Below are positions 1,186-35,926 of a stretch of DNA of 35,992 nucleotides, in pieces. The DNA comes from Bacteroidota bacterium (GTDB lineage Bacteria > Bacteroidota > Bacteroidia > Bacteroidales > M50B96). The DNA is taken from NCBI GenBank assembly GCA_024762835.1, contig JANTGP010000010.1, positions 1 through 35,992 of the forward strand, written 5' to 3'. The notes under the pieces are model-generated. The model worked only from the letters and a program-made list of their open reading frames with translations, had not been told where the DNA came from and did not search any database. Position 1 is the first letter of the stretch, and every line of letters begins with the position of its first letter. A program made the position numbers and the translations under genes.

Positions 1186-1222
1186 TAATATTATTTTAAT
1201 ATCATATTAAATTTACTAAATT

Positions 1223-2071: not shown

Positions 2072-2073
2072 AA

Positions 2074-2458: not shown

Positions 2459-2460
2459 TT

Positions 2461-2546: not shown

Positions 2547-2641
2547 TTATAGAAAAAAAAGAAAATTTTTTGCTAACCTTTTTCAATGACTGTATACATA
2601 TTGACACAGATTAATTTCTCAGACTTAATCAAGGGGGTTTT

Positions 2642-2680
2642 AAAAAAAGGGAACTGAATAATTCGGTTCCCTTTTTCTTT
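2642..2680. terminator. Bidirectional terminator hairpin between convergent operons
   Basis: The stem AAAAGGGAAC...GTTCCCTTTT has an additional inner GAAT/ATTC pairing and is flanked by an A-run on one side and a T-run on the other. It can therefore stop transcription from both the SPFH operon (+) and the dehydrogenase/HD operon (-). Confidence 0.85.
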
Positions 2681-2696
2681 TAGTAAAAACAGATTA

Positions 2697-3248
2697 CTAT
2701 TCAATTATTAATCTTTCCTTAAAAGGAAGGAAGGTCATAAAATCGGCATGATGGACAACATAAGCTTCGGTTGTTCGCTTAATCATATTCCCTTCGCCGG
2801 CATGAGCTGCAATAATATGACAAACTTCAGCGGGTACATTACATTCCTCGGCTAATGAAACTCCTGAAAATGGATGACGAACATATTTTCCGTAATTCCC
2901 CTGAACAGCTTTGCCTTCTTTGTCAAGCTCATATTCGAGTAATTTTCCAACATCGGCAAGTATAGCTCCGGCAATCAAAACATCCATATCTACAGTAAGC
3001 TCACCATGGTACATTTCGTTTATCTTATTTCCGGCATCTCTTGCAATATGCACAACAGACCTTTTATGATCCATAAATGTAACTTTAAGGTCGGGTCCTA
3101 CCAAAAGAGTAAAGGGAATTCTCTTCAAGTCGTCAGCAGTAAGTACACTACGCTCTAGAGCCAGTTGCCATGTTTTTGCAGTATTACCACGCAATTCCTC
3201 ATCTTTAATCCAATTTAGCTCAGGCCAAAGTTCAAACACTTCTTTCAT
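2697..3248 (-). CDS. HD-domain protein, dehydrogenase-linked, with altered HD motif
   Basis: A 183-residue cytoplasmic protein with an HD-type helical phosphohydrolase fold. Metal-site residues visible are H61 or H67 (MDHKRSVVHIA), H125 (VRHPFSGVSLAEE), H149 (IIAAHAGEGN) and a later VVHHADF. At the signature position the sequence is GAILADVGKLLEYE: A98-D99 where most family members have His-Asp. I confirmed the codon as GCC on the minus strand. The Ala could weaken or change metal binding, or be a feature of this subfamily. The gene begins 17 bases after the dehydrogenase stop, so the two are co-transcribed and probably act on the same metabolite or nucleotide pool. The substrate is unknown. 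Confidence 0.8.
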   Translation of the reverse strand: MKEVFELWPELNWIKDEELRGNTAKTWQLALERSVLTADDLKRIPFTLLVGPDLKVTFMDHKRSVVHIARDAGNKINEMYHGELTVDMDVLIAGAILADVGKLLEYELDKEGKAVQGNYGKYVRHPFSGVSLAEECNVPAEVCHIIAAHAGEGNMIKRTTEAYVVHHADFMTFLPFKERLIIE

Positions 3249-3265
3249 CTGTATTTAATTTATTA

Positions 3266-13222: not shown

Positions 13223-16087
13223 ATGAAAAAAATCATACCCTTATTTATTTTTCTACTTTTTTCTTCGCTACTTTTTTCTCAACCTAAAATTCAAAACCCG
13301 GCACTCCTAAAAAATTATACTGAAAATATTCGTTTGGAGCAGAATATTGATAGTTTTAAAAACCTATCTTATTTGCCATTACAGGTATTTTTTAGTACTG
13401 GTGCCTATTGCAATGATTCCATTGGATTCATAGCTTGTCAGATGTATAGTGGGATTACTCCTTATTCATATTTATGGAATACAGGTGATACAGTACCTAT
13501 TCTTGACTCAATATCTGCCGGTGATTATTTTGTTACTGTTACAGATTCTTTAGGCTTTGTTGTTATAGATAGTGTTATAGGGTTTAACCCTGTTCCCTTA
13601 TCAGCAGATTTAAGCTACCCGTCAACAGGATGTATACCTACACTTGCAAGTATTGATGTTACGGGAGGGAACAGTCCTTATTTAATTCATTGGTCAACCG
13701 GGGTTTATGACACTTATACCATGTTAAATAGCAGTGGGGCGTATTCAGTAACTGTTCAAGACAACTCAGGTTGTTCTATTACCGATTATTTTTCCATTAC
13801 ACATGATACGTCATTATTTATTGATGGATCAGGTGTTATAACATTAGACACTTGTTCTGATTTACCAGGCTCAATAGAATTAACTCTAGATGCTTCATCT
13901 TATCCGGTTAGTTTTAACTGGTCTGATAATCAAACGACCCAAAATGTCGACAGTTTACATTCCGGTTATTATACTGTTACAATGACAAATCCAGATGGTT
14001 GTTATTTGTCTTTAGATTTCTATATTCCCTTATTTCCAGACCTTGATGCCTTTGTCTATTCTTCTTCCTATGTAACAGATTGTCAGTTGTTAAATAATGG
14101 TTCAGCTTTTGCTTCAATTGTTGAAGGTGTACCGCCTTACAGTTTTCAATGGTCAATTCCAAGTACTGGTAACATGTTGACAAATATCGGTCCGGGAAAT
14201 TATTATGTAACAATTAGTGATTATTGTGACACCCAAATCGATTCTGTTACTGTAGAGTATTCATTTTCTGTAAATTTTCAGATAGAAGAACAAAATGCAT
14301 ATTGTAATACTAATAGTGGAAAAATTGAAATAACAGGATATAACCTGATGAATATTGATAGTTTTTATGTCCAAGATATTATTAGCGGAGATATCTTTGT
14401 CCCAAGCTCAAATTACATAATTGATTCACTTCCGGTTTCTGATTATACATTAACATTAATTGATATTTATGGTTGTGATTCTATTCTTCCAGTCCATATA
14501 GGATTTGTCCCTGTTGATTTTGATTTTGAGATTGATTCAGCAGTTTGTCAAGGGGATACTGTTTCAGCAGATGCTGTGTTTTACTCACCATATACCGATA
14601 CTGCTTATACTTACTATGATATTGAAGAAATTCCATTTAGTACACAAAATATGAGTTTGGGAACAACAATATCTTCAAATATTTCTGATGATAGGTATTA
14701 CGGACCTTTTAATATCGGTTTTGATTTTAATTTCTTTGATGAAGATTATAATCAATTTTGGGTAGGTTCAAATGGATGGATAAGTTTTTCATCATTGTCT
14801 TCCTTAAATTTTGACCCTTGGCAGACTAATGCAATTCCAAATAACGAGGCATGGCAACCAAGAAATGCAATATTTGCATTATATAGAGATTGGAATGTTG
14901 GTAATAGTATGATAAGTGACATAACTTATTATACATCGGGAACAGCACCAAACAGGAAATTGGTGGTGAATTATATTGATGTGCCATTGTATATTTGTAC
15001 ATCTATTTATGGAAACTTTCAGATAGTACTTTACGAAGGCTCTGATATTATTGATGTGAATATTATTGATGGACCAATGTGTCAACAATGGAATGGTGGC
15101 AAAGGTGTATCGGGTATTCAAAATGCTGAAGGGACACTTGCTTATGTTATCGATTCTCTAAATAACACATCTTTTGATGCTTATAACTTCAGCCTTCGTT
15201 ATACACCTTGTAAGCCACAATGGTTCGACCCTAACGGAAATTTAATAGCCGAAGGAAGTAACGTTAGTTTTGTGGCAGAATCTACCGGAACATATAGCGT
15301 TGAGACCTGTACGTATTGTGGTTTTGAGGTAAATGAATTTGAAATTAATTACCAATATATATTCACACCAAACTCTCAACTTCCGGCAGATACATCTATG
15401 TGTCAGGGACAAAGTCTTTCGTTTTTTGCTGCAAACAATACAGCCTACACCTATCTATGGAATACAGGCGAAAGTACAGACTTAATTACTATTGACACAG
15501 TAGGTTTGTACGAAGTAACAATAACAGATGATAGTATTGGTTGTATAAGTGTCCATTCTGTTTTTGTTGATGAACAAGGATTAGCCATTTCAGCTTTCGA
15601 TTTTGCCGAAGCATTCAACAATGTTCAGTTTACTAATCTTTCGCAAAATGCTAATTCTTATATTTGGAATTTTGGCGATGGAACACCTGTCTCTAACGAA
15701 ATAAATCCGGTACATGATTATCCTTCATCAAGTCAAAATATTTGGTACACCGTTTCATTAACTTCAATAAACCAGTGTGGTGAAGATTCATCAAATACAC
15801 AAATTTTAACTTTCGAATTAGAAGAGATAGATGGAAATAGCCAAATTGGTGTTTTCCCAAATCCTAACAAAGGAAATTTTTATATAGATGGAACAGTTGA
15901 ATCGCCAAAAGAGGTTATAATGAGTATTTACAATTCATCGGGGCAAAAAGTTTACACAAAAGAGATTTTACCAAAGAGCGGCAAAATATTGCAAGAAATA
16001 CAAATGGATGATGAGTCGGCAGGCTTGTATTATTTAGTGCTTCAACAGGCAAATAAGAAATGGGTGCATAAACTTATGGTTGAATAG
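13223..16087 (+). CDS. T9SS-exported multidomain surface protein with SprB-like and PKD domains
   Basis: A 954-residue secreted protein with an N-terminal signal peptide (MKKIIPLFIFLLFSSLLFSQ). Residues about 40-400 hold degenerate SprB-like modules (PYSYLWNTGD, GDYFVTVTDSLG; PYLIHWSTG; PYSFQWSIPS). About 470-690 is a larger beta-rich region (GPFNIGFDFNFF, WVGSNGWISFSS, GKGVSGIQNAEG) like domains seen in Bacteroidota adhesins. Another PKD/SprB-like unit (AYTYLWNTGES) and a PKD domain (YIWNFGDGTPVSN) follow. The last 80 residues are a T9SS type A sorting domain (IGVFPNPNKGNFYIDG ... AGLYYLVLQ ... HKLMVE). Such domains direct export across the outer membrane and are removed when the cargo is anchored or released. 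No catalytic motif is seen; adhesion is inferred. Confidence 0.85.
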   Translation: MKKIIPLFIFLLFSSLLFSQPKIQNPALLKNYTENIRLEQNIDSFKNLSYLPLQVFFSTGAYCNDSIGFIACQMYSGITPYSYLWNTGDTVPILDSISAGDYFVTVTDSLGFVVIDSVIGFNPVPLSADLSYPSTGCIPTLASIDVTGGNSPYLIHWSTGVYDTYTMLNSSGAYSVTVQDNSGCSITDYFSITHDTSLFIDGSGVITLDTCSDLPGSIELTLDASSYPVSFNWSDNQTTQNVDSLHSGYYTVTMTNPDGCYLSLDFYIPLFPDLDAFVYSSSYVTDCQLLNNGSAFASIVEGVPPYSFQWSIPSTGNMLTNIGPGNYYVTISDYCDTQIDSVTVEYSFSVNFQIEEQNAYCNTNSGKIEITGYNLMNIDSFYVQDIISGDIFVPSSNYIIDSLPVSDYTLTLIDIYGCDSILPVHIGFVPVDFDFEIDSAVCQGDTVSADAVFYSPYTDTAYTYYDIEEIPFSTQNMSLGTTISSNISDDRYYGPFNIGFDFNFFDEDYNQFWVGSNGWISFSSLSSLNFDPWQTNAIPNNEAWQPRNAIFALYRDWNVGNSMISDITYYTSGTAPNRKLVVNYIDVPLYICTSIYGNFQIVLYEGSDIIDVNIIDGPMCQQWNGGKGVSGIQNAEGTLAYVIDSLNNTSFDAYNFSLRYTPCKPQWFDPNGNLIAEGSNVSFVAESTGTYSVETCTYCGFEVNEFEINYQYIFTPNSQLPADTSMCQGQSLSFFAANNTAYTYLWNTGESTDLITIDTVGLYEVTITDDSIGCISVHSVFVDEQGLAISAFDFAEAFNNVQFTNLSQNANSYIWNFGDGTPVSNEINPVHDYPSSSQNIWYTVSLTSINQCGEDSSNTQILTFELEEIDGNSQIGVFPNPNKGNFYIDGTVESPKEVIMSIYNSSGQKVYTKEILPKSGKILQEIQMDDESAGLYYLVLQQANKKWVHKLMVE

Positions 16088-20437: not shown

Positions 20438-20827
20438 ATGAAAGCTTATTTCTATAGTTTTATTATTATAATACTTCTTTTGCCCCAAACCCTTCTTTCT
20501 CAAGGCGAGGCTAATAATTGGTTTCTTCATCTTGATAATTATATTAGCTTTAATTCCGGCTCCCCCGAACTTATTACCCCTCCACCTGCTACAGAATGCC
20601 CGGGATGGGAACAAAGTTATTGCGACTTTTTTTCAACAGACGTTGCAGGATCAAGCATTAGCGATAAAGATGGAAACTTATTATTATACACCAATAATTA
20701 TGTAGTTTGGAATAACCAATTCGATACTATATATAAAAATAATATAGGAGGTACTTTTAATCATATTGGTGCAAGCCAAACTTTAATAATACCTCATCCG
20801 GGTAATTCAAATATTTATTTTAAATAA
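20438..20827 (+). CDS. T9SS cargo gene, N-terminal piece (before frameshift)
   Basis: 129 residues with a signal peptide (MKAYFYSFIIIILLLPQTLL, then SQ). The start of a beta-propeller-like domain common in Bacteroidota surface proteins follows (NNWFLHLDNYISFNSGSP, SISDKDGNLLLYTNN, HIGASQTLIIPHPGNSNIY). The frame closes abruptly at a TAA (20825-20827) just where the family continues. The following frame takes up the same domain without a gap. Adding one A to the AAA at 20822-20824 would restore reading (YFKINVPYYNTAGG). The piece alone would be exported without a sorting domain and is unlikely to function. Confidence 0.8.
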   Translation: MKAYFYSFIIIILLLPQTLLSQGEANNWFLHLDNYISFNSGSPELITPPPATECPGWEQSYCDFFSTDVAGSSISDKDGNLLLYTNNYVVWNNQFDTIYKNNIGGTFNHIGASQTLIIPHPGNSNIYFK

Positions 20828-20829
20828 AT

Positions 20830-23316
20830 GTGCCATATTATAATACTGCTGGCGGAATAAAATATACCGAAATAGACATTTCTCTTAACGGTGGAATTGG
20901 TGGATGGATTTGGCCAAACAATCATATGTTGCTTACCCCATCATGTCAAAAAGTTACAGCCGTTTATCATGCAAATGGTAAAGATATCTGGTTAATGCTA
21001 CACGAATTTAACAGTAATGCTTTTTATGCTTTTTTGGTTACCGAAAACGGCTTTAGTTCTACAGCTGTTATTAGCAATGTAGGCAGTGTACATACAGAGC
21101 CCTCAAACCCTCAGGCAGGTATTCCCAATGGGAGTAGTTATGGCGAAATGAAATTTTCTACTAACGGAAAAAGGCTTGCACTTGCTGTGTTTGAGTTGGG
21201 ATTTTGTGAGGTTTTTGATTTTGATAATACTACGGGCATTGTTACAAACCCAATTACCATTCAGGTTGAAGCTGCCGAACATGTTGAGTTCTCACCTGAC
21301 GGTACTATATTATACATTGGGAATAATTATCAATTTGGAATGTTATCATCAGACATTACAAGTATATATCAGGTAGATTTACTTGCAGGTGATTCAAGTG
21401 ATATTGTTAATTCAAAATTAAAAATTGATATTTTTACAAATTGCCCAGGATATAATTCATGGTTTAATTTTATTCAATTAGCACCTGATGGAAAAATTTA
21501 TAATATTAAATCAATAGTTAATTGCAATGGAGTAAGTTATTGGAATACATATATTTCAGCAATAACATCACCAAATACAGTAGGTTTAGGTTGTAATTGG
21601 GTTTTTGATGCAATTGTTATTCCTCAATCATATTGTGGTAGTAGTGTTCTTCAAAATTTGCCAAATTTTTTTCGCTCGGCATTAGATAGAAATATTGTAA
21701 TGGAAAATACTTGCTACGGAGATACAACATTAATTTGTACACAAACAAACACCGATTTTGATTCTATACGGTGGGAGTTTGAGGATGTTGGTGCAGGTTT
21801 AATATTTTCTATCCCCAACCAAGATGCTGTTTATCATGTTTTCTCAGAACCAGGTAGTTACGAGATTATTTTAAAAAGATATAGAAATGGTTTTTTGGAT
21901 GAGGATAAACGTATGCTTTATATTTTACCTACGGTTAATATTAACCTTGGTAATGATAGCTTATTTTGTGAGGGAACTTACCTTAGTGTTGGCAATCAAC
22001 CCTTTTGTGAGTTTGCATGGTTAAGTAATCTTACTCAGGATTCGGTTTTTGCCGATTCTATTCCGGTTACTCAAACAGGTGTATTTTGGCCTGTCCTTAC
22101 AAACTTTGAAGAGCACTGCGGCAGTACAGATACAGCCATCATAACGTCTTATATGCCGGATTCTCTTTTTATTGGAAACGATACATCAGGTATTTGTATT
22201 ACAAACCCAATAACTCTAAATGCAAACATAGACAGCACCCTGAGCGTAACCGAAGTATACACGTGGTCAACAAACGATGCAACTGCTACAATTACAGCAA
22301 ACCAAAGTGGTTATTATTGGGTAGATGTGCAACAAGGCTATTGCACATTTACCGATACCATATTAATAAACTACGATGAGCCTTTACCTGTTTTATTACC
22401 TGATACCGTCTTTTTATGCGACAGTATAGCGGAAATTGTTAGTGCAGGGATTCCGATAGCTATCGGGATTATCTGGTCACCAAACGGCGAAACAACATCG
22501 GAAATAACAATAGAAACAGCCGGAGTATATGGCGTTACGGCAAGTAATGCTTGCGGTGAGTTTGCAGATTCGACAAGGGCTATTTATTTACAAACACCAA
22601 CAGTCTATTTTGGAAACGATACAATTATTTGCCTTGGCGAGCAAATACTATTTTCTATTCAAAACCAACAATTATCTAATAATCTGTGGTCAACAGGTGT
22701 AACAGATACCTCAATAACAGTATGGGAGCAAGGCAATTATTCGCTAATTGTTAGTAATATTTGCGGTAGCGATACAAATAGTATTTTTCTTGAAGTTCAC
22801 GAAAATATATTTGCATTCGCAACAGATACTTTTTTCATTTCAAACAGCGATAGCATAATTATTTCTACATCGGAAGAATACGAAAGTTATGATTGGTCAA
22901 CAAACGAAAGCACAGCTTCAATAACAGTTTCGGAAATTGGGACATACTATTTAACCGTAACAGATACAATTGGCTGCAAAGCAACAGATAGTATAATAGT
23001 TGCAATAAAGGATTCCGCCTCAGGTGTTTTGCCTTTACAAGACATACTTATTTATCCAAACCCTTTTTCAGATAATTTAACAATCTCAGGTTTACAAGGA
23101 GATGAAGAAATTAAAGTAGTTGATGTTCTCGGTAGAATAATATTTGCTACTTATCTAAAAGATGGAATGGTACAAGTTACAAACCCTATAGCTATCGGGT
23201 TGCACCAGCAGGGGGATTGTATTCAACTTAGTTTTGAACTGCAAACATTTGGATTATATTTTATTTACATAAAAAGAGGCACAGAGTTTAAAGTTTTTAA
23301 GGTAGTGAAAGGGTAG
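20830..23316 (+). CDS. T9SS cargo gene, C-terminal piece (after frameshift)
   Basis: Opens at a GTG that is probably not a real start, since the protein sense runs in from upstream in another frame. The 828 residues begin with the rest of the propeller-like domain (GGIKYTEIDISLNGGIGG, FSPDGTILYIGNN, LAPDGKIYNI). Several Ig/PKD-like modules follow (SIRWEFEDVG; TYLSVGNQPFCEFAWLSN; EVYTWSTNDATATITANQSG; NNLWSTGVTDTS; ESYDWSTNESTASITVSEIG). The tail is a T9SS type A sorting domain (ILIYPNPFSDNLTISGL ... GLYFIYIKRG). Two short palindromes interrupt it in frame, encoding IPIAIGI and NPIAIGL; the second sits inside the sorting domain, which looks about 15-20 residues longer than usual. With the upstream piece the intact gene would encode about 959 residues. 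Confidence 0.8.
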   Translation: MPYYNTAGGIKYTEIDISLNGGIGGWIWPNNHMLLTPSCQKVTAVYHANGKDIWLMLHEFNSNAFYAFLVTENGFSSTAVISNVGSVHTEPSNPQAGIPNGSSYGEMKFSTNGKRLALAVFELGFCEVFDFDNTTGIVTNPITIQVEAAEHVEFSPDGTILYIGNNYQFGMLSSDITSIYQVDLLAGDSSDIVNSKLKIDIFTNCPGYNSWFNFIQLAPDGKIYNIKSIVNCNGVSYWNTYISAITSPNTVGLGCNWVFDAIVIPQSYCGSSVLQNLPNFFRSALDRNIVMENTCYGDTTLICTQTNTDFDSIRWEFEDVGAGLIFSIPNQDAVYHVFSEPGSYEIILKRYRNGFLDEDKRMLYILPTVNINLGNDSLFCEGTYLSVGNQPFCEFAWLSNLTQDSVFADSIPVTQTGVFWPVLTNFEEHCGSTDTAIITSYMPDSLFIGNDTSGICITNPITLNANIDSTLSVTEVYTWSTNDATATITANQSGYYWVDVQQGYCTFTDTILINYDEPLPVLLPDTVFLCDSIAEIVSAGIPIAIGIIWSPNGETTSEITIETAGVYGVTASNACGEFADSTRAIYLQTPTVYFGNDTIICLGEQILFSIQNQQLSNNLWSTGVTDTSITVWEQGNYSLIVSNICGSDTNSIFLEVHENIFAFATDTFFISNSDSIIISTSEEYESYDWSTNESTASITVSEIGTYYLTVTDTIGCKATDSIIVAIKDSASGVLPLQDILIYPNPFSDNLTISGLQGDEEIKVVDVLGRIIFATYLKDGMVQVTNPIAIGLHQQGDCIQLSFELQTFGLYFIYIKRGTEFKVFKVVKG
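22453..22466. repeat. Palindromic repeat, copy 1 (inside coding sequence)
   Basis: A perfect 14-base palindrome, CCGATAGCTATCGG, extended imperfectly to about 22 bases. It adds the residues PIAIG in frame. Confidence 0.75.
23184..23199. repeat. Palindromic repeat, copy 2 (inside the sorting domain)
   Basis: CCCTATAGCTATCGGG is a 16-base palindrome with one mismatch (T/C). The core ATAGCTAT is the same as in copy 1, again reading PIAIG in frame. Confidence 0.7.
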
Positions 23317-23485: not shown

Positions 23486-26400
23486 TTATTTAATAAGCTG
23501 TATTGGCTTACTAATAATCTCTCCATTAACATTAAGTTTAATAATATAATTGCCTGAGCGAAGATCACCCGACTCGTAATTTACACTATTAATACCTTTG
23601 TCGTAAATGCCTTTAACAATTGTAGTTAGTTTCTCGCCAAGAACATTGTAAAGCGATATTTCCACTTCAGCTTTCTCGTTAAGATTAAACTCAATTGTTG
23701 TGTAATCACTAAACGGATTAGGATAATTGCTCAAATTAAGTTCTGAAATAATTTCAACAAACTCAACTTTATCAGCTATTGCAATTGCATTTTCATGGAA
23801 CTTGCCATCACCTTCGAGCCAGCTGCTTATTTCAAACTTATTTGTTGTACCGGATGCTTTGTGATAAATTTCAAAAGTCATAGTCTCATAATTAGACATT
23901 CCGTTCTTATTATCAGCAAGTTCGTCGAGACCCCAAACACTTATTGCCATATTTTGTCCGGTGTATACCGAAGCACCTGTTATAGTGCCATTTGCATCAA
24001 ATACTGCAATCTCATCACCAACAAGCGGCTTAACATTCCATGCATTTGCAGGAATAGCGATAGTCATATCCTTACCGGTTGATTTAGGCTCTGAATAGTA
24101 TTTCAGTTCGGGAACAATAACATTTGATTTGGCAACTGCAGCATCGTTTGCAGGATAAACTAAAGTTGCAGGGAACTTCATGTTAATTTTATATCCTTCA
24201 CCAGGTAGCATATTTCCAATAAGGTCGAGACCAAACATTGGCCAGTAAACCTGTCCGTTTCCATCTTTAAGTAACATCATTTGAGCACTAATAGGGCTCA
24301 TCATATCAACTACTGAGGCAGCTGTTTTACGAAGATAACCTAAATGATTATAAGTAAAGTTAAGAACAATAGGATGGTTAACAGGATTAACCGCTGAACC
24401 TTCAACATTTAGAGTTCGAGTATTAACCATTTTTATCAGATATGCATCACCAATTATCATGTTTCCAATTGTGTTAACACCGAATGCTGTCCAATATACA
24501 TCACCATTACCGTTTTTAACCATTATCACATCATTTGAAATATCAGCAAGAACAGCATCGATTGGGTTTGTATTATCAATGTATGTAGAGAACATGCTCC
24601 ATCCTTCATTTAGAACGATTTCTTGTCTCTCATCAATCTGAACCATATCATTGTTTTCACAACCGTTCAAGGTAACACTTACCGAATACTGTCCGTATGA
24701 CGGCACAATAAATGAACTTGTTTCGCCTGTGCTCCACAAGTAACTGTCAAATACACCCGGATATAAGATTATTGTATCAGGATTCATGGTAATTGCATAA
24801 TTATAATCAAAGTCGATAACCGGATTTGAAACCAGTATATCTGTTTGTGCAGTTGCCGAACATCCTGCTGCATTGGTAACTGTCAGATTATATTCACCGC
24901 TATAATCAGTAGTAATATTACTAATTAGGTTTTCACGGTTTATAGATGTCCATCCGTTTGGACCTGCCCAATTATAACTTAGACTTGTACCTGAATCAAA
25001 TGCTTTTATCTCTACCATATAATCTTCTGTTTCACCTTTTTGGTACATGCCACAATAATCTTGTGTAGCAGCATCGTTAGTAATAATACGTATACGTTTT
25101 TCGCCAAGTTGGGTTGATTGAGGTACTGTAAAAGTATAACAGAAGCCAAGTGTATCATCACCCCAATCACCTTCGCCATCACAATCATCATCCCATGGTG
25201 GCCACAATTCGTCATTTTCGTCAAACAAACTACATGCTACATTTGGATTACTTGTATTATTATGAATATAAACTTTAAGAGTATAAGTTTGTCCAACATA
25301 CAATGTTGCTAGAGCAGATGATGTGTTGTCCGTGTAATTTGAAGCACCACTTGTGATAATATTTCCATCTAATTCAACTTTAAAGATATGGAAATAACTA
25401 TCGAAAAGTGAACTTGACTCACAACTTGCAGGTGATAAATTACAAGTATCACAGCTAATCTCTAATGGTTCTCCATGTATGTCAAATTCAGTTCCTTGAC
25501 AAACGGGTGAACTGCTAGTAATAATAGCTGTTGGTAAATCGTCAATTACAGTAAGGTTAGTAACAATAATACTATCACATCCTTCTATACTTGACAATGT
25601 GTCGTAATAAACACCTGTTGTGTTTTGCATTGCTCCGCCAACAAATACTTCTTCATTTGAACAAATAGAAATATCAACATTTGTAATTATATCTAAACAA
25701 AGTTTTTCTATTGTAAAATCAAAGTTAAAACAGGCAGGGTCAAGTTGGTCAACCAATACATAATAAGCACCTGGTGCTAACACAGTTTCAATAATTCGTG
25801 GGTCGGCAGTAGCATCAGCTACATATACCATAGCATTATTAGTTGAAGGACAATCTGCATATAAGGCAAGACCTGTCTCAATCGTTGCCAATGGGTCTAA
25901 TGTAATTCTTACATTTGTTTCCTCGGCAACATTTAGTTTATAAACAACATCTTCACCTTCGTCATAAGTGTTTAATTCAGTGTCGCTGTAACTGTTACCA
26001 TGACCACAAGTTGTTTGGTTGGCATCATAATATGTTAATGATGATGGAACATCAACAACAAATGGTGAAGTACAATCATCACCTGAACCGGAAGGCTCAA
26101 AGATAGTAACAAGAATATCATCACTACATGCATTGATATCGCTAACAGTAAGAGTGTAACCACCTGCAGTTAAACCGGATAAGTCTTCTGTTGTTGCACC
26201 TGATGTCCAATTATAGCTATATGGTGTTGTTCCACCGGTAACAGTTATGTTTACTGCACCATCGTTACCACCATAAGAGCTAACATCATTTGTACTTGAC
26301 GAAATACTTAAAGCATTAGGTTCAGATAGAGTTACAGACGATACTGAGGTACATCCCATATCATCAGTAACCGTAACACTATATGGCCCTGCAACTAAAT

Positions 26401-29400
26401 TATCATTTGTTGAGTTTGGATTGAAGTCTGACCAGAAATATACATAAGGCATTGTTCCGCCTGTTGCACTTACTGTTGCACTTCCATCGTCTCCACCATT
26501 ACAGCTGATATCTGTTTGTGAGCTTATACTTGAAACTAGTTCAGTAGGCTCTGTTATTATTACTGATTCAATTGCTTCACAAGCATTATCATCAGTAACT
26601 GTTACTGTATAAGTTCCTACTGTCAGCATACCAATATTATCATCAGTGCAGCTGTTGCTCCATAAGTAAACATAAGGGCTTAATCCACCATTTACTAAGA
26701 TTGTTGCAGCACCATTATTACCGCCAAAGCAACTAACATTAGTTTGTGAACTGATACTTGCGATTAGTTCTGTTGGTTCGCTAATCTCTACAAAAGCAGT
26801 TGCAGAACAACCATTTGCATCAGTTACTGTAACTGTATATATTCCTGCGGATAAACCTGCAGGATTAGGTGATGTTGCTCCGTTTGACCATAGATAAGTA
26901 AATGGGAGAGTTCCTCCATTAACAAATACACTTGCCGCACCGTTAGAGCCTCCATAGCAGCTAACATCAGTATGTGAAACGATATTAGGGAATAACTCGT
27001 ATGGTTCGGTTATTTCTACTGTTGACATACTTGTACATCCAAGGTCATCAGTTACTGTAACTGTATAAGAACCGGCAAATAATCCACTAATTGTGGCTGT
27101 TACTTCTCCATTACTCCATAAATAAGAATATGGAGATGTTCCTCCGCTTGCAAGAACAGTTGCTTCACCATCATTTCCACCTGTACAGCTAACATTTGTT
27201 TGTGTACTGATTGATGATACAAGAACATCAGGCTCGGTAATTACTGCATAGGTGTAGGCAACACATCCATTTACATCAACAATTGCTACGGTATAATTAC
27301 CTGCTGATAATCCTGTTGCTGTTTCGTTTATTGAACTGTTTGACCATAGATATGAATATGGCATTGTTCCTCCTTCTGCTAAAACAGTAGCTTCACCGTT
27401 ATTACCGCCATTACAACTAACATTAGTTGAAGCTGCAATTGTTGCTGTCAACAAATCAGGTTCTGTAATGTTAATGCTTGTTGAAGAAGAACATCCATGA
27501 GCATCACTTACAGTAACATCATAGCTGCCTGCCAGTAAACCGCTTACATTATCAGTTGATGCATTATTTGACCATAAATAAATGTATGGCATTGTTCCGC
27601 CTTCAACTGTAACATTTGCACTACCGTCAGCAACACCAAAGCAACTCACATTATCAGTTACACTAGCAACTATTACTAAGTCATCTGGTTGAGTAATTGT
27701 TATACTTGCAAACGTAATACAGCCATTTGCATCAGTTACCGTAACTGTATAGCTGCCTGCTGCCAGTGAACTTATATTTGCAGTAGTAGCACCATTACTC
27801 CATGAATAGGAATAAGGTAAAGTACCTCCTGTTACTAAAACGGAAGCACTTCCGTCGTTACCGCCATAGCAGCTTACATCTGTTGAATTAACACTGCTAA
27901 TAGAAAGAATATTTGGTTCGGTAATAGTTATTGAAGAAACACTTGTACAGCCCAAATCATCAGTTATTGTAACTGTGTATGTTCCGGCTGTAAGTGTGTT
28001 TATTACTGCAGTGGTAGCACCATTACTCCATAAATATGTATATGGCATTGTTCCACCGCTTGCAAGTACACTCGCTTCACCATCATTTCCACCTGCACAA
28101 CTGACATCTGAGAAATAGTTAATACCTGAACTTAAAACAGTTGGTTGTGTAATAATTACAGATAAACTTGTTAGGCATCCATTGGCATCAGTTACATCAA
28201 CACTATAAGTTCCGGCAGTAAGCTCGGTCAATGAATTGTTTGTTGAACCGTCAGACCATAAATAACTGTATGGTAAAACACCACCTGTTGTAATAATAGA
28301 TACTGCACCGTTGTTACCACCAAAACAGCTTACATTTGTTTGGTAATCTACAATGGCAATAAGCTCATCAGGTTCAGTAATGATAACAGAAGTAATTGCA
28401 GTACAGCCGTTAGCATCGGTAATGCTAACATCATATGTTCCTGCTGCAAGTCCACCTGCAAATGCCGAAGTTGCATTGTTTGACCAACTGTATGAATAAG
28501 GAAGAGTTCCTCCTGTTGCTACTGCATTTGCATTACCGTCATTACCACCAAAACAACTTACGTTTGTTTGTAAACTAATTGATGCAACTAATTCGTCAGG
28601 CTGTGTTATTTCTGCTTCGGCATTAGCTATACATCCGTTTGCATCAGTAATTACACATGAATAACTATCATCACCTAAATTAGGAATGTCAGGAATAGTT
28701 GCTCCATTCGACCATAGATAGGTATATGGCATTGTTCCGCCATTCACACTTAAATCAATTGCCCCATCGTTATTACCATTACAACTTACATTATCAAATG
28801 AAGCAATTTCAGCAATAAGTTCGGAAGGTTCAACAATTGTAACACTTGCTGATGCTGTAAGTCCATTATCATCAGTAATTGTTAAAGTATATTCGCCACC
28901 GGCTAATCCTGTAAGGCTTTCAATAGTTTCACCGTTTGACCATAAGAAAGTATAAGGCGTGGTACCACCGTCACCAACCATAGTAACTGTTCCGTCGTTT
29001 GCTCCGAAGCAAGAAACATCAGTTTTTGATGACAAGACAACGTTTAATTGTCCGGGCTCGTAAATTTCAGCACTTGTTGTTGATGTACATCCATTAGCAT
29101 CAGTAACTATAACTGTATATGTTCCGGCTAATATTCCGCTAAGGTCTTCTGTGGTTTCGCCATTAGACCATAAGAATGAATATGGTGTTGCTCCGCCTGT
29201 AACAGAAATATCAATTGCACCGTCAACACAGCCATAACATGATAGATTTGTTTGCGAACTTACACTTGCAACAAGAATAGAAGGTTCTGTTATTACATAT
29301 TCATCTATTTGTTCACAACCATTTATGTCGTGAACAGTTACACTATAGTTTCCAACAGATAATCCGGCAAGGAAATCTGTAGTTTCACCATTTGACCACA

Positions 29401-32400
29401 TATATGAATAAGCAGCCGTACCACCGGAAACCGTAAGAAGAATTTCACCATCATTACCTCCGTTACAACTTACATTGTTTAGAGTAGAGCCAATTAATAA
29501 TTCATCAGGTTCATTTAATAATATATTAGCATCGGTAACACATCCATTAGCATCTGTAATAATCACTGAGTATGAGCCACCGGCAAGTCCGGTGATATCT
29601 TCAGTAGTTTCGCCGTTAGGTGTCCACGAATAGGTATAAGGCGTAGTTCCACCGTTTACAAACAGGTCTATTTCTCCATTGTTTGCTCCGTTACATGTTA
29701 CATCAGTTTGAGTATAACCTGCTGTTAATTCCGAGGGCTGTAAGATTGTTACATCTGTTTGGGCAGTACAACCCATATTATCTATTACAGTAACAAAATA
29801 ATCACCGGCTAAAAGATTGTCGATTGAAGCTGTGGCTTGGCCGCTATTCCATAGGAATGTGTAAGGAGCTGTGCCACCGGTTGCCTGAGCTGTAGCAGCT
29901 CCATCACTTAGTCCGAAACAAGAAACATTTGTTTGAGATGTTATTGAAACGACTAATTCGTCAGGTTCTGTAACTTCAACAGATGATTCAAATGTGCAAG
30001 CATGAGCATCAGTAATAGTTACAAAATATATATCGGCAATCAGATTGTCAATAGTAGCATCAGTGCCAACTGTGCTCCATTCATAAGTATATGCTGCTGT
30101 TCCGCCTGTTACTGTAATGCTTGCTGAGCCTGTCGAGGTGCCATTACAACTTACATTAGAACTTGATATTGTTCCTGTTAAGTCATCAGGTTGTTGAATT
30201 GTAGCAAAAGCTTCGGATGAGCAGCCATTTGCATCGCTAACTATTACCGAGTATTCGCCTGCAAACAATTCAACATTCTCAGCATCTGTTGTTCCGTTTG
30301 ACCATAAGTATGTGTAAGGAGCTACACCGCCTGTTGCTGAAACAATAGCATTTCCATCGTTAAATCCGAAACATGAAACATCGTTACTTGTTACAGTTAA
30401 AACTAACTCGTCAGGCTGGGTAATTTCAGTTGATAAGCTCTTAGAACATCCATTAGCATCGATAACTGTAAATGAATACATTCCTGCTGATAAACCGCCA
30501 ATTGTTGGTGAGCCTGCTCCACTTGACCAGAGATAGGTGTAAGGACCAACTCCGCCGATTATTGTTACTCCCAGAGCCCCGTTTGTTCCTCCGTAGCAGC
30601 TTACATTTGTTTGTGATGTTAATGTAGCAACTAATTCATCGGCTTCGTTAATTTCTACTGATGCAGATGATGTGCAGCCGCCATTATCGGTAATTGTAAC
30701 GGTATATGTTCCGGCAGCAAGCTCTGTTGCTGTAGCATCGGTAGCTCCGTTTGACCATAAATAAGCAAAAGGAGAACTTCCGTACATTGCCTCTGCTGTT
30801 GCAGTACCTGTACTTTCTCCATAGCATGCAACATTTGTTGAAGCACTAATATTTGCAGTAAGTGCTGGTGGTTCTGTAATAATAAATGATTCGGTAGCAG
30901 AGCAGCCATTTGCATCAATTACATCAACGCCATATGTTCCGGCATCTAATCCTGTAATATTATCATTGCTAGCACCATTTGACCATGAATAAGTAAATGG
31001 TGATGTACCTCCTGCTATTGTAAGATTAATTTCTCCGTCGCTACCCATACAGCTAACCTCACTTTGAGTACTGTTAATCTGCAATACATCAGGTTGAGTA
31101 ATTTCTGCGGCAAACAGAGCTACGCAACCATTAGCATCAGTAACTGTAAGAGCATAATTATATGCTGAGAGAGCATTGATATCCTGTGTTGTTTCACCAT
31201 TTGGTGACCAGAAATAAGTATATGGTGTTACGCCACCAATTATTGAAACATCAATGGCTCCGTTGTTTCCACTATAACAATCAATATTTGTTTGAGAATC
31301 CAAAGCTACAGAGAACTCATCAGGTTGAGTAATTGTAACAGAAGTTGATGTAACACAGCCATTATCGTCTGTAATATCTACAGTAAATGTTCCTGCTGCC
31401 AAGTCAGTTGCAGTAGCATCAGTAGCTCCGTTTGACCACAAGTAAGAATACGGGCTTGTTCCGCCTGTTGCAAGAACTGTTGCAGAACCTGTTGCAGCTC
31501 CATAGCAGTCAACATTTGTTTGTGTACTAATTGAAGCACTTAGTAATGCCGGCTCGCTTATAGTGAGCGATGTGCTTGCAGTACAGCCCATATCATCAGT
31601 AATATCAACAGTATATGAACCTGCAATCAAAGCTGTAGCTGTTGCATCTGTTGTACCATTTGACCATGAATATGAATATGGACTTGTTCCTCCCGTAGCA
31701 AGTACGGTTGCCTCAGCATCGTTTCCTTCAAAACAGCTTACATTATTGTAAGAATCAATTGAAGCTACAAGTTCAGCCGGTTCGGTTAAGCTTGTTCCGG
31801 TAACAGAGGTACATCCGTTGGCATCGGTAACAGTAAGAGAATAAGCACCTGCAGAAAGATTACTCAAATCTTCAGTGGTTTCGTTATTTGGCCACCATGA
31901 GTAATTGTATCCGGGTGTTCCGCCTTCAACAAGCACATCTATTGAACCGTCGGAACCACCGTTGCAACTAATATTTGTTTGAGATGATATTGTTGCAACA
32001 ACAGCGGTAGATGGTTCTGTAATAGTAACTGTTGCTGTTGTTGTGCAGCCAAGTGCATCGGTTACAGTAAGAGTATGTGTATCGGCAATGAGGGCAACAG
32101 CAGTTTCGCTAGCTTCACCGTTTGTCCACAAAAATGAATATGGACTTGTACCTCCTGAAATTGTAGCAGTTGCAGTACCATCATTTCCACCTAAACAATT
32201 TACATCTGTTTGTGCACTTATTCCTGCTGCGAGTATTGTCGGTTCTGTAATACTATATGAAGCTGTTGCTATACATCCGTTACTGTCAACAACAGTAATA
32301 TCATAAGTTCCAACAGGCAATGCAAAGATTGAATCTGTTGTTTCACCGCTCGACCATAAATAAGTATATGGTGCTGTTCCGCCTAAAGGTGAAATATCCA

Positions 32401-35400
32401 GTACACCGTCATTACCACCAAAACAACTTACGTTTGTTTGATTGTCGAGGGCAATTGATAAATCACATTCAACACCGGTTATTTCCAGATTATAATCTCC
32501 GAAATATGAGCTATAGCCATAAACTTTTGCATAATAGGTACCTGCTTCTAAGAAAGGAATAGAAATATATGAATTTCCACCACTACCACAGTTAGAGTAA
32601 GAGTCATCATTATAATACATATACGAAGAAGAGCTACAATTATCCCATATTTCCAGTTTTGTATCATAGGCAGAGCCGCACAATGATATTACTACGCTAC
32701 CGTAATCATTATTTAGGGTAAATGAATACCAGTCTACATCATAAGCATATACGGTAGAATCGGTAACAGCAGGGTCGTTAATTAAACCGTAATCAAGAGC
32801 AAGAGTACAAGAGTCTCCCATAAAATAACAAGAGCCATCATCATGCGTTGCAGTATCCATATAATTTATAGCCAATGGGTCCATACAGCCTTCGATATAA
32901 ATACAACTGCCATCATCCAGGGTTGCAGCAGGGTCATAATTCTCAGCAATTGGATCCATACAACCTAATATTGGCATTTCCATTATACTAACATTATCAA
33001 CAAATAAATCATAGCCATAACCTGAAATGGCATTGAATCTAATTAATAATGAGTTTCCAAAGCTTGATAAATCAATAATTCCGGAAGGAACAAAAGTTCC
33101 AGGACTTGTAGAACCGGCACCGTCATTTGAGTTTAAATCAGTACCTGTTTTATTCCAAACCGAAACCCAGCTTGCGCCATTATCATCAGAAACTAAAACA
33201 TCTAACTCATCATTTGGATATGATGATGAGTAACCACTTGACCAGTCGAAGTTAAGTGTTGGTGTGGTTAAAGTGGAAACATCAAATGTAGGTGTTGTCA
33301 TTACTGCGTTATTTCCAGAAGAGTGACTCCAGAAGTTTGCTCTGGCACTACTTGAACCATATTGAACCCAGTTAAATGTACCTCCTGTTAAATCCCAGCA
33401 ATCAGGTGTCCAAGTATCAAATGTTTCAGTCCATGGGAAAGTATTAACAGCATCACATGCAGTAGTAAATGTATAAGGTCCCACCCATGAACTTTGAGAA
33501 CTGCCGCAATCGGCTCTTACATACCAATCGTAAGATGTGTTGGCAGTTAAACCGTTAACTGTATAAGGATTTGTAAGGCCTGCATATGTAGGTGTTCCGG
33601 TAGGAGTAATCCCAGTTTCAACTATTTCTATATCCCAGCTTGTTTCTGTACCACCTGCAGTCCAACTTAATTCTGCCGAGTTGCCAGTTATTGAACTTGT
33701 TGCCAGTGCTGTAGGAGATGCACAAGCAGGTGCTTCATCAATAGTTATATCGTCTATAGATATGTCGTCATAATAGTCTGATCCGGAAGATGTTTCGTCA
33801 CCAACAAATTGGATTTGAATTGGCCCTGAAATTGTCAGAGTAGCTAAATCAACTGTCATGTTTTCCCAACCCGATGTATTTCCACTAAAAGAGGCAAAAT
33901 CATTATTCCATGCAGCACCATCCCATATATTAACATGTAAAGTCATATTAGGATGACCTTCATTATCACTATAAAACCAAAAATCCAATTGAGGAATAGA
34001 TAGTGTGCTAAGGTCAATAAAAGGAGTAGTTAAGGTGACATCTGTAGAGTGAGGATATTCTGAGTCATCAACTGAAGCAAAATAACCAGCTCCACTTGTG
34101 TGGTCGCTTGTTGCAGAATGTCCAATTCCTGTAGTGCTAAATTGCCAAACTTCGCCAGTTGAACTAGTATTTGTCCAATATGCAGGTGTTGCTCCTCCAT
34201 CTTCAAAATCCTCAAAGAAAGGAGCAACGGCAATATAAGGATTGATGGTCAGAACTCCACTAACATTAGTTACACCATCCCAAAAGCCACCACCTCCGGC
34301 ATTATAACCACCATATTTAAAAATACCACCGCTTAATTGCCAGCGACTTGCATAGTAATATGTGCCGGGGAGCAAATTTTGAGGAAGTCCGAGGTCAGCC
34401 ATAAATTCATCATTATTACCATTATCTAAATTGTATGTTGCAGGAACCCAGTCTGTCCATGTAGAAGGGTCGGTATTTGATGTACTGTAGCCTATCCATA
34501 CATCTATTCCGGCTCCTGCACCTGCACCAGGTGTTACTCCATCTTCCCATCCCTGAGTATAAACGGTTACGCTATTACCTTGAACAATTGTAGCATTTTC
34601 AGGCCACTGCAAATTACACCAATCCATGGCAAATAGAGGGGTCTCTTCAACAGTGATATCATCAATACCAGAGTTGTCAGTATTAACTCCCCAAATTGAA
34701 ACACCTCTAAATCTGACAACAACTCTATTTGAGGTAAAACTTGAAAGTGAGATTGTGTTCTCAAACCATGTGTTAGTTGTTGAATGATCATGTACGAATA
34801 CATCATTTGTCCATGTTGCTCCTCCATCGTCAGATACGTCAATATGAATGGGATTTGCTGCTCCATCTGCACCAATCCATGCCCAGTATTTTATCTGATA
34901 GCTTATTCCGGGACTTGAGAAATCAAAATTCGGAGTGAGTAAATTTACCGGACTGTTATTATAGTGAATGCTATAGTCATTTAATAAAGCATAATAACCT
35001 GTTCCACTGGTATGGTCAGCTGTTGAGCCGTGACTATTTGTAGTAGTAAATTCCCAATCTTCTCCTCCATCTCCGGCGTCATTTGTCCAATATAAAGGAA
35101 TACTTCCACCATTCTCAAAATCTTCGGTGTAAGGTGTAGCTACTGTATACCAGCAACTACCATCATCAACAGTAGCAGTTGGGTCATAATTTCCGGCAGA
35201 TGGATCCATACAACCAGGGATTCCTGAGCAATCAGCCAAACCGGCATCTCCAGTTGCATCAGGCGTAGTTCCACCTACGCCAGAAGCAAGAACTTCAACG
35301 CCATTACTATCATATATATAATATGAATTCTCAGTAGAATAACTACCGGCGGTATAAATTGTAGTTATTGCTTGTCCTGTAAAAACTGTAAATATGTGAT

Positions 35401-35926
35401 TCTCGGGGCCGGCCCCGCTTGAAATTGTCAAGCTGGATAAAACAGGTACCCCATCAACTAAAATGTCCAATGAACCTCCATTCCACCCGTCTCCCCATGA
35501 ATCAAGGAGTGATACTGAATAATCACAAGAAGGACAAACCGCAAAACCAACTAATCCTCCGCTAGGAGTTGATCCTCCATCTCCATCAGAAAACATTTCA
35601 GTTCCATCTGCATCAAAGATTTTATATGAATTTTCAGTAGAATAGCTACCGGCAGTATAAACAGTAGTTATTTCTAGTCCATCTGTTACAGTTAAAACAA
35701 AGTTCTCGGGTCCAGCCCCGGATGAAATTGTTAAACCGGTTAGAACAGGTGTCCCGTCAACGAGTACGTCAAGTGAGCCTCCATTCCAACCATCACCCCA
35801 TGAGTCAAATAGAGTAACTGTATAGTCGCAATTTTGAGCCATTATGCTTCCATTAAACATTGAAAACAAAATGATAAACAGCAAATTTGCATACCATGTT
35901 TTTTTAAGTAAAGATTTCTTTTTCAT
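23486..35926 (-). CDS. Giant T9SS-exported adhesin-like protein with 28 SprB repeats
   Basis: 4146 residues, uninterrupted. A signal peptide (residues 1-31, ending SIMAQN) is followed by two copies of a 100-residue beta domain (DSWGDGWNGGSLD). Then come a calcium-site-like GCMDPSAGNYDP repeat and choice-of-anchor-J/MAM-like domains (TEDFENGGSIP, FFEDFEDGGATP, WTETFDTWTPDCW) interrupted by a fibronectin type III domain (about 740-830). Two more GCMDP repeats and a pre-peptidase C-terminal-like domain (about 1032-1150) precede 28 tandem SprB repeats (about 1156-3278). After these are a second such domain, a GEVED-type domain (about 3495-3640), two GNGxVYW repeats and a T9SS type A sorting domain (NLSNYPNPFSDYTTIEF to the end). 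SprB repeats are named for the mobile gliding adhesin of Flavobacterium johnsoniae. Surface adhesion or motility is inferred; no enzyme motif is seen. Confidence 0.93.
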   Translation of the reverse strand: MKKKSLLKKTWYANLLFIILFSMFNGSIMAQNCDYTVTLFDSWGDGWNGGSLDVLVDGTPVLTGLTISSGAGPENFVLTVTDGLEITTVYTAGSYSTENSYKIFDADGTEMFSDGDGGSTPSGGLVGFAVCPSCDYSVSLLDSWGDGWNGGSLDILVDGVPVLSSLTISSGAGPENHIFTVFTGQAITTIYTAGSYSTENSYYIYDSNGVEVLASGVGGTTPDATGDAGLADCSGIPGCMDPSAGNYDPTATVDDGSCWYTVATPYTEDFENGGSIPLYWTNDAGDGGEDWEFTTTNSHGSTADHTSGTGYYALLNDYSIHYNNSPVNLLTPNFDFSSPGISYQIKYWAWIGADGAANPIHIDVSDDGGATWTNDVFVHDHSTTNTWFENTISLSSFTSNRVVVRFRGVSIWGVNTDNSGIDDITVEETPLFAMDWCNLQWPENATIVQGNSVTVYTQGWEDGVTPGAGAGAGIDVWIGYSTSNTDPSTWTDWVPATYNLDNGNNDEFMADLGLPQNLLPGTYYYASRWQLSGGIFKYGGYNAGGGGFWDGVTNVSGVLTINPYIAVAPFFEDFEDGGATPAYWTNTSSTGEVWQFSTTGIGHSATSDHTSGAGYFASVDDSEYPHSTDVTLTTPFIDLSTLSIPQLDFWFYSDNEGHPNMTLHVNIWDGAAWNNDFASFSGNTSGWENMTVDLATLTISGPIQIQFVGDETSSGSDYYDDISIDDITIDEAPACASPTALATSSITGNSAELSWTAGGTETSWDIEIVETGITPTGTPTYAGLTNPYTVNGLTANTSYDWYVRADCGSSQSSWVGPYTFTTACDAVNTFPWTETFDTWTPDCWDLTGGTFNWVQYGSSSARANFWSHSSGNNAVMTTPTFDVSTLTTPTLNFDWSSGYSSSYPNDELDVLVSDDNGASWVSVWNKTGTDLNSNDGAGSTSPGTFVPSGIIDLSSFGNSLLIRFNAISGYGYDLFVDNVSIMEMPILGCMDPIAENYDPAATLDDGSCIYIEGCMDPLAINYMDTATHDDGSCYFMGDSCTLALDYGLINDPAVTDSTVYAYDVDWYSFTLNNDYGSVVISLCGSAYDTKLEIWDNCSSSSYMYYNDDSYSNCGSGGNSYISIPFLEAGTYYAKVYGYSSYFGDYNLEITGVECDLSIALDNQTNVSCFGGNDGVLDISPLGGTAPYTYLWSSGETTDSIFALPVGTYDITVVDSNGCIATASYSITEPTILAAGISAQTDVNCLGGNDGTATATISGGTSPYSFLWTNGEASETAVALIADTHTLTVTDALGCTTTATVTITEPSTAVVATISSQTNISCNGGSDGSIDVLVEGGTPGYNYSWWPNNETTEDLSNLSAGAYSLTVTDANGCTSVTGTSLTEPAELVASIDSYNNVSCFEGNDAEATVLATGGTSPYSYSWSNGTTDATATALIAGSYTVDITDDMGCTASTSLTISEPALLSASISTQTNVDCYGAATGSATVLATGGTSPYSYLWSNGATDATATDLAAGTFTVDITDDNGCVTSTSVTITQPDEFSVALDSQTNIDCYSGNNGAIDVSIIGGVTPYTYFWSPNGETTQDINALSAYNYALTVTDANGCVALFAAEITQPDVLQINSTQSEVSCMGSDGEINLTIAGGTSPFTYSWSNGASNDNITGLDAGTYGVDVIDANGCSATESFIITEPPALTANISASTNVACYGESTGTATAEAMYGSSPFAYLWSNGATDATATELAAGTYTVTITDNGGCTSSASVEINEADELVATLTSQTNVSCYGGTNGALGVTIIGGVGPYTYLWSSGAGSPTIGGLSAGMYSFTVIDANGCSKSLSTEITQPDELVLTVTSNDVSCFGFNDGNAIVSATGGVAPYTYLWSNGTTDAENVELFAGEYSVIVSDANGCSSEAFATIQQPDDLTGTISSSNVSCNGTSTGSASITVTGGTAAYTYEWSTVGTDATIDNLIADIYFVTITDAHACTFESSVEVTEPDELVVSITSQTNVSCFGLSDGAATAQATGGTAPYTFLWNSGQATASIDNLLAGDYFVTVIDNMGCTAQTDVTILQPSELTAGYTQTDVTCNGANNGEIDLFVNGGTTPYTYSWTPNGETTEDITGLAGGSYSVIITDANGCVTDANILLNEPDELLIGSTLNNVSCNGGNDGEILLTVSGGTAAYSYMWSNGETTDFLAGLSVGNYSVTVHDINGCEQIDEYVITEPSILVASVSSQTNLSCYGCVDGAIDISVTGGATPYSFLWSNGETTEDLSGILAGTYTVIVTDANGCTSTTSAEIYEPGQLNVVLSSKTDVSCFGANDGTVTMVGDGGTTPYTFLWSNGETIESLTGLAGGEYTLTITDDNGLTASASVTIVEPSELIAEIASFDNVSCNGNNDGAIDLSVNGGTMPYTYLWSNGATIPDIPNLGDDSYSCVITDANGCIANAEAEITQPDELVASISLQTNVSCFGGNDGNANAVATGGTLPYSYSWSNNATSAFAGGLAAGTYDVSITDANGCTAITSVIITEPDELIAIVDYQTNVSCFGGNNGAVSIITTGGVLPYSYLWSDGSTNNSLTELTAGTYSVDVTDANGCLTSLSVIITQPTVLSSGINYFSDVSCAGGNDGEASVLASGGTMPYTYLWSNGATTAVINTLTAGTYTVTITDDLGCTSVSSITITEPNILSISSVNSTDVSCYGGNDGSASVLVTGGTLPYSYSWSNGATTANISSLAAGSYTVTVTDANGCITFASITITQPDDLVIVASVTDNVSCFGVADGSANVTVEGGTMPYIYLWSNNASTDNVSGLLAGSYDVTVSDAHGCSSSTSINITEPDLLTATIAASTNVSCNGGNNGEATVLAEGGTMPYSYLWSNSSINETATGLSAGNYTVAIVDVNGCVAYTYAVITEPDVLVSSISTQTNVSCTGGNDGEATVLASGGTSPYSYLWSNGEVTATISGLFAGSYTVTVTDDLGCTSMSTVEITEPYELFPNIVSHTDVSCYGGSNGAASVFVNGGTLPFTYLWSNGATSPNPAGLSAGIYTVTVTDANGCSATAFVEISEPTELIASISSQTNVSCFGGNNGAATILVNGGLSPYVYLWSNSCTDDNIGMLTVGTYTVTVTDDNACEAIESVIITEPTELVSSISSQTDISCNGGDDGSATVSATGGTMPYVYFWSDFNPNSTNDNLVAGPYSVTVTDDMGCTSVSSVTLSEPNALSISSSTNDVSSYGGNDGAVNITVTGGTTPYSYNWTSGATTEDLSGLTAGGYTLTVSDINACSDDILVTIFEPSGSGDDCTSPFVVDVPSSLTYYDANQTTCGHGNSYSDTELNTYDEGEDVVYKLNVAEETNVRITLDPLATIETGLALYADCPSTNNAMVYVADATADPRIIETVLAPGAYYVLVDQLDPACFNFDFTIEKLCLDIITNVDISICSNEEVFVGGAMQNTTGVYYDTLSSIEGCDSIIVTNLTVIDDLPTAIITSSSPVCQGTEFDIHGEPLEISCDTCNLSPASCESSSLFDSYFHIFKVELDGNIITSGASNYTDNTSSALATLYVGQTYTLKVYIHNNTSNPNVACSLFDENDELWPPWDDDCDGEGDWGDDTLGFCYTFTVPQSTQLGEKRIRIITNDAATQDYCGMYQKGETEDYMVEIKAFDSGTSLSYNWAGPNGWTSINRENLISNITTDYSGEYNLTVTNAAGCSATAQTDILVSNPVIDFDYNYAITMNPDTIILYPGVFDSYLWSTGETSSFIVPSYGQYSVSVTLNGCENNDMVQIDERQEIVLNEGWSMFSTYIDNTNPIDAVLADISNDVIMVKNGNGDVYWTAFGVNTIGNMIIGDAYLIKMVNTRTLNVEGSAVNPVNHPIVLNFTYNHLGYLRKTAASVVDMMSPISAQMMLLKDGNGQVYWPMFGLDLIGNMLPGEGYKINMKFPATLVYPANDAAVAKSNVIVPELKYYSEPKSTGKDMTIAIPANAWNVKPLVGDEIAVFDANGTITGASVYTGQNMAISVWGLDELADNKNGMSNYETMTFEIYHKASGTTNKFEISSWLEGDGKFHENAIAIADKVEFVEIISELNLSNYPNPFSDYTTIEFNLNEKAEVEISLYNVLGEKLTTIVKGIYDKGINSVNYESGDLRSGNYIIKLNVNGEIISKPIQLIK
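26093..32461 (-). repeat. Array of 28 tandem SprB repeats (about 228 bp each)
   Basis: Each unit is about 76 residues with the order NVSCxGGNDG - GGTxPYxYxWSNG - AGxYxVTVTDxNGC - ITEPDEL. The two conserved Cys, about 45 residues apart, probably form a disulfide after export. I counted 28 units. Unit 16 lacks the second Cys (DDNGLTAS) and unit 28 lacks the first (DVSSYGGNDG). Units 15 and 26 carry an additional Cys (CYGCVDG and NSCTDDN). DNA similarity is highest between short motifs such as the PYSYLWSNG codons, and no two units look identical. Confidence 0.92.
35228..35830 (-). repeat. Tandem duplication of a 100-residue N-terminal domain
   Basis: Two adjacent copies (35528-35830 and 35228-35527 on the minus strand) share LFDSWGDGWNGGSLD/LLDSWGDGWNGGSLD, LTISSGAGPEN and YTAGSYSTENSY. 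They are close enough to indicate a recent duplication within the giant gene. Confidence 0.88.

Follow-up and report, generated by a model that had tools for sequence, protein, structure and literature searches.

The window, by which we mean the whole stretch of 35,992 nucleotides that was analysed (positions 1-35992), corresponds to contig C10 in a draft genome assembly (3.28 Mb, 317 contigs, 90.3% complete). On its minus strand lies a giant open reading frame (Table 1), the ATG start codon of which is 66 bp away from the end of the contig and which, according to the ORF listing and its translation, runs to 4146 amino acids with zero internal stops. A single giant gene for a T9SS adhesin with SprB repeats had been described here in an earlier note, and this observation is confirmed by the intact reading frame, its 28 repeats and its sorting domain. 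The remark that no gld or spr genes are in the window also holds, as no match to one of these was obtained in the 14 ORFs of at least 100 amino acids outside the giant gene (13 by Pfam, one by NCBIfam).

Table 1 Features of the giant gene in the window, from its N-terminal to its C-terminal end
Feature	Position	Strand	Evidence
Giant ORF, complete	23486..35926	-	4146 aa
Signal-peptide-like N-terminus, aa 1-31	35834..35926	-	Basic start and hydrophobic core, by eye from the translation
Two tandem 'DSWGDGWNGG' units, aa 30-231	35234..35839	-	No Pfam/NCBIfam family above cut-off
Best MAM stretch, aa 573-732	33731..34210	-	PF00629 79.9 bits; two stretches counted in all
fn3 domain, aa 737-813	33488..33718	-	PF00041 27.9 bits, cut-off 25
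PPC-like domain 1, aa 1063-1137	32516..32740	-	25.7 bits, just under cut-off 25.9
Array of 28 SprB repeats, aa ~1158-3283, ~76 aa each	26078..32455	-	PF13573, own-unit repeat HMM, self-identity
PPC-like domain 2, aa 3328-3393	25748..25945	-	21.9 bits, under cut-off 25.9
GEVED domain, aa 3596-3638	25013..25141	-	PF20009 32.1 bits, 40.3 in second scan; cut-off 24.4
Two tandem ~85-aa units 'GWSxxSTYI ... VKNxxGxVYW' (181-aa stretch)	24092..24634	-	No Pfam/NCBIfam family
115-aa domain 'NTGxNMTLGIP ... GDEIGVF'	23747..24091	-	No Pfam family above cut-off; travels with the GWSxxSTYI units
T9SS type A C-terminal sorting domain, aa 4068-4140	23507..23725	-	PF18962 36.3 bits (cut-off 27); TIGR04183 30.2 bits (cut-off 23)

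Beyond the stop codon of the giant ORF lies a convergent gene on the plus strand (20830-23316) that is not PorP/SprF. It is the second of two adjoining ORFs (20438-23316, +) of 129 and 828 amino acids and starts at a GTG 2 bases past the stop codon of the first. The end of the 828-aa product matches the type A domain with 30 bits in Pfam, which is over the cut-off, and with 22.5 bits in NCBIfam, just under it; the pair is either one broken T9SS gene or two genes. Further away, a 954-aa type A protein is encoded at 13223-16087 (+) that has PKD and SprB-like similarity (SprB 32.5 bits, no single stretch passing), and at 8446-11904 (-) a protein of 1152 amino acids with PPDK_N at aa 601-966 as its sole Pfam match.

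The N-terminal half was called mixed in the earlier note, in agreement with the MAM match in two stretches and the fn3 domain. The two pre-peptidase-like domains named there were both seen again, but as weak matches under the cut-off. Short cysteine motifs of the form 'GCMDP ... DDGSC' occur in three copies at about aa 235-260 and 985-1035, and Pfam gave no match for aa 986-1036. None of the seven Pfam families found in the giant protein at E 0.01 is a lectin family, several stretches are without any family, and no enzyme family was recognised by Pfam. To call it an 'adhesin' is to guess from its MAM and fn3 domains and its architecture. Sequence searches of the PDB returned nothing for the whole protein at E 0.001 and nothing for aa 30-1155 at E 0.01.

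Among the matches listed in a search of 98 other genomes with the C-terminal 737 amino acids, for which up to 11 candidates per genome were scored, there was no full-length ortholog. Against genome contigs the same query led to one locus in a Bacteroidales MAG (L048), the sole named relative recovered, by which the organism probably belongs to that order. The N-terminal, MAM and fn3 stretches and aa 431-560 had no match at E 1e-5 in the 22 loci fetched.

The SprB repeats at the locus and in the genome

The Pfam SprB model PF13573 matched the giant protein in 28 stretches that form an uninterrupted run (967 bits, E 4.9e-300). When 13 units of the window were used to build a repeat HMM, this found 28 strong units between aa 1160 and 3279, with three weak matches outside the array, and comparison of the protein with itself gave a maximum of 38% identity at a lag of 76 residues, against a median of 8%. 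The count of 28 repeats over about 2120 residues in the earlier note was therefore right. PF13573 had no match in any of the 14 control genomes. The units are on average 47% identical in protein and 55% in DNA when compared pairwise; the best pair reaches 68% in DNA, and the longest exact repeat within the DNA of the array is 36 bp. Because the units differ this much in DNA, an assembly artefact is unlikely. Recent duplication of adjacent units was not seen either, neighbours being 47% identical in protein, as are all pairs. Each of the two conserved cysteines of the unit is present in 27 of 28 copies. The array is very acidic, as its 2126 residues include 134 Asp and 87 Glu but only 2 Lys and not a single Arg; the pI of 4.05 computed for the whole protein as well as for the array looks like the lower limit of the program and was disregarded. 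Matches to BiPBP_C and rSAM_Geo_metal were also set aside, since no stretch passes alone and the best stretches fall in the array.

Three consecutive units were modelled from an alignment of 26 overlapping triplets of the window, in which the aligner was partly out of register (310 columns for 228 residues). The model has a mean pLDDT of 95 and a pTM of 0.72 and is all beta with six strands per unit, so that the SprB repeats are predicted to be a string of Ig-like beta domains. Its best match in the PDB is the grappling hook protein GhpA of Aureispira (9flw; Foldseek E 1.8e-9), on which it superposes with a Z of 10.9 and an rmsd of 4.5 over 215 aligned residues. Next in the ranking by fold come animal Ig and fibronectin chains and the Hoc protein of phages, the next Z values being 9.9 and 9.8. 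By sequence profile, too, the repeat matches GhpA (9flp, E 4.1e-5), with four phage chains scoring above it, and a stretch of five units searched by sequence gave five PDB matches at E 1, the best of which is a phage neck protein (4.8e-4). Since Ig chains of animals and phages follow so closely behind GhpA, the fold says little about function. Matches of the repeat in PHROGs are 'Hoc-like'.

SprB repeats are not confined to the giant gene. At least 127 matches at E 0.001 were counted across the genome, with 150 of 209 candidates scored, and 34 ORFs have a repeat match, the giant ORF included. One of them, on contig C116 (L038 5115-9947), is open at the contig end; at least 16 SprB repeats are found in it along with a type B domain that scores 75.8 to 78.7 bits, and 24 bp past the ORF a gene for PorP/SprF begins. 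A type A match of 33.5 bits in the same ORF was set aside, as no stretch passes alone and it falls inside the repeats. On contig C5, a type A ORF with 10 repeats is open at the contig end, and after it come genes for a type B protein and for PorP/SprF.

The ends of 20 other repeat ORFs were surveyed. Type A scored over the cut-off in 16 of them, type B in two (C116, C24) and, under the cut-off, in another two (C21 and the second ORF of C149). Outside this survey stayed six ORFs that run off their contig end (C274, C112, C117, C43 and the second ORFs of C21 and C11) and seven that do not, namely C11 with 4 repeats and C5a, C102, C13, C96, C229 and C127 with one or two. As 16 of the 20 surveyed ends and the giant ORF are of type A, the SprB repeat alone is no basis for inferring gliding. 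It does prompt such a label, in the earlier note and also in the annotation given in an enzyme paper (PMC7698502).

The C-terminal module and its relatives

The giant protein ends in a type A sorting domain; the type B model TIGR04131 had no match in it, and none of the 17 TIGR04131 matches of the genome is on C10. A match of the PorU model covers the sorting domain alone and was set aside. Matches to PKD and Ig-like families in the C-terminal flank stayed under the cut-off. The two GWSxxSTYI units are 36% identical to each other over 70 amino acids. Together with the 115-aa domain they make up a module (23747-24634) that stands before the sorting domain in 22 further ORFs of an alignment, drawn from the own genome, related and more distant ones, with identities of 24-51%. 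These were retained at E 1e-6 if at least 250 of 381 residues were spanned, shorter ones being dropped; row L049 of the alignment is the window itself and is outside the count of 22. Of the 295 genomes of the order, 39 or more, the own one among them, have a match to the two-unit part, with at most six candidates scored per genome. A tally of 150 of 295 genomes for the module was rejected as overstated, because the sorting domain is part of the query alignment and accounts by itself for many of the matching rows. The last 381 amino acids found nothing in the PDB by sequence at E 1, and a structure prediction for the module, with two sequences as input, was of no use, its mean pLDDT being 33.

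Module-bearing relatives also carry SprB arrays. A PPC domain followed by two repeats is present in C7, in C29 of G001 and in C76 of G002, and one followed by four repeats stands before the same module in C89. Three repeats in C48 and 15 in L048 precede it as well, both without a PPC match, and a relative on C166 has eight repeats in a comparable place. The ORFs of C7, C48, C89 and C166 have an open N-terminal end as fetched, and their arrays begin inside. An array that lies between N-terminal domains and a shared module and that counts 2, 3, 4, 8 or 15 repeats in relatives would suit a stalk of changeable length. Module and stalk are but loosely linked, however, since the module is also found without a real SprB array (C127, C229) or with scattered repeats (C115 of G087, C8 of G071). 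Placed before the sorting domain and without a Pfam entry, the recurrent module could be made a named family and lends itself to the study of how type A proteins are held.

Secretion genes and the fate of the giant protein

SprA (2686 bits), PorV (484 bits) and GldK, GldL, GldM and GldN were all found in the genome over their cut-offs. The genome thus has several of the genes by which the earlier note proposed to check its T9SS reading, and the absence of any T9SS genes, which it named as counter-evidence, does not apply; together with the type A sorting domain they support T9SS export of the giant protein. GldB and GldH are over the cut-off, and GldJ is borderline, its best stretch scoring 455.4 bits and the whole protein 460.8-462.5 bits at a cut-off of 458.2. 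In the control genomes, GldH over and GldB under the cut-off were both seen in Bacteroides ihuae and GldJ under the cut-off in 2 of 14, which counts against taking these genes as a sign of gliding. GldD was not found in this 90%-complete draft; it is present in 11 of 13 genomes searched, including all three other members of the family. The genome has nine PorP/SprF homologues, none of them on C10. In F. johnsoniae a C-x-C motif links SprF to GldK (PMC12635249). None of the nine homologues (L036-L039, L041, L103, L112-L114) has C-x-C in its last 40 residues, and one or two other cysteines are near the end in five of them (C25, C54, C115, C207, C253).

We consider it reasonably probable that the giant protein is a PorV-routed member of the T9SS type A class, stalked and located at the surface or in a matrix, and that the gliding track does not carry it. 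It would be exported by Sec, leave through SprA and then be collected by PorV; the C-terminal domain would be cut off and the remainder either fixed on lipopolysaccharide or shed. The 28 SprB repeats, predicted to be Ig-like, may then serve as a long passive stalk that holds the MAM, fn3 and unnamed N-terminal domains away from the cell, where they presumably bind something, and the track would leave the protein unmoved. In other words, the export machine probably fixes the giant protein to the cell surface or sheds it, and it is probably not the moving 'foot' on which related bacteria glide. As such it is large and intact, yet a fairly ordinary example of the known type A surface proteins that the T9SS exports and that have a stalk of SprB repeats.

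The comparison with SprB of Flavobacterium johnsoniae bears most directly on this. Both proteins are giant and have SprB-type repeats, and T9SS export would be common to both, but SprB belongs to the type B substrates and has SprF as its anchor (PMC12635249), whereas the giant protein carries a type A domain and its contig lacks a PorP/SprF gene. SprB is reported to have 6497 amino acids (PMC9870892) and a length of about 150 nm (PMC13104615) or about 200 nm (PMC12635249); as to the length here, 4146 residues packed like SprB would come to very roughly 95 to 130 nm, which is a proportion and not a measurement. According to a domain-swap study in F. johnsoniae, SprB with its own type B domain is mobile, with the type A domain of RemA it is secreted and surface-exposed but immobile, and with that of AmyB it is released to the medium (PMC12618676). 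Since the sorting domain sets the fate of the cargo in that organism, a giant type A array is expected to be static or shed.

The earlier note had left two alternatives, a stand-alone surface filament and a gliding adhesin encoded away from the machinery. The former fits better and the latter less well, because a type B domain and PorP/SprF, by which SprB is tied to the moving track, are absent here and both present at the C116 locus. With its repeats, its type B domain and PorP/SprF directly downstream, that locus is a likelier counterpart of SprB than the giant ORF. A mobile gliding adhesin would have to ride the track despite its type A domain, as RemA does in part, or use a PorP/SprF carrier encoded elsewhere. 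RemA is indeed a precedent: it is a type A surface protein of F. johnsoniae for which, as for the giant protein, an adhesive role is proposed, and it is partly mobile, with mobile foci in 86% and immobile foci in 55% of the 86 cells that gave a signal, helical movement having been reported earlier and elsewhere (PMC12618676). Type A therefore does not exclude movement. RemA has a lectin domain (PMC12618676), though, whereas no lectin family was recognised in the giant protein. GldB and GldH, the borderline GldJ, GldK-N and the nine PorP/SprF homologues would also suit a gliding adhesin. Against it speak the type A domain, the immobility of SprB with the RemA domain, the lack of C-x-C in all nine homologues, the missing GldD and the better SprB counterpart on C116, and we regard a role in gliding as quite improbable. 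A protein that is cut free after export and works outside the cell, in a matrix or biofilm, seems unlikely to us, if less so: shedding of SprB with the AmyB domain speaks for it, and the very acidic array would suit ion binding, but the type A domain alone does not tell release from anchoring.

Very improbable, in our view, is a filament that captures prey or particles in the way of GhpA. Like GhpA (PDB 9flp, 9flw and others), the giant protein is very large and has repeats of a predicted Ig-like fold; its repeat model has no better match in the PDB than GhpA, which the repeat profile matches too, but this likeness is common to many Ig-like chains: four phage chains outrank GhpA by profile, and animal and phage chains are close by fold. 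Moreover, GhpA ends in a type B-like domain, its aa 5804-5885 matching the type B domain of C116 with E 9.3e-13, whereas the giant protein ends in a type A domain and its C-terminus had no match to the GhpA chains. The T9SS-secreted hooks of ixotrophy are described as heptameric in a review (PMC11205867), the hook protein of which we take to be GhpA.

Returning to the static or shed type A protein that we favour, it is tempting to speculate, as one possibility that we hold only tentatively, that the SprB arrays of this lineage have largely left the gliding system and become length-adjustable stalks of static type A proteins, the cell-facing end of the stalk being attached to the undescribed GWSxxSTYI module, which may help in anchoring. 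If true, nature would have carried out in this lineage the same kind of domain swap as was published for SprB. A SprB repeat and a C-terminal sorting domain also occur in one protein in the fucoidanase Fhf1, which has one repeat and an enzyme domain (PMC7698502), in contrast to the 28 repeats and no enzyme family recognised by Pfam in the giant protein. The same combination of SprB repeat and sorting domain is described for proteins beside TANFOR toxins (PMC7073777).
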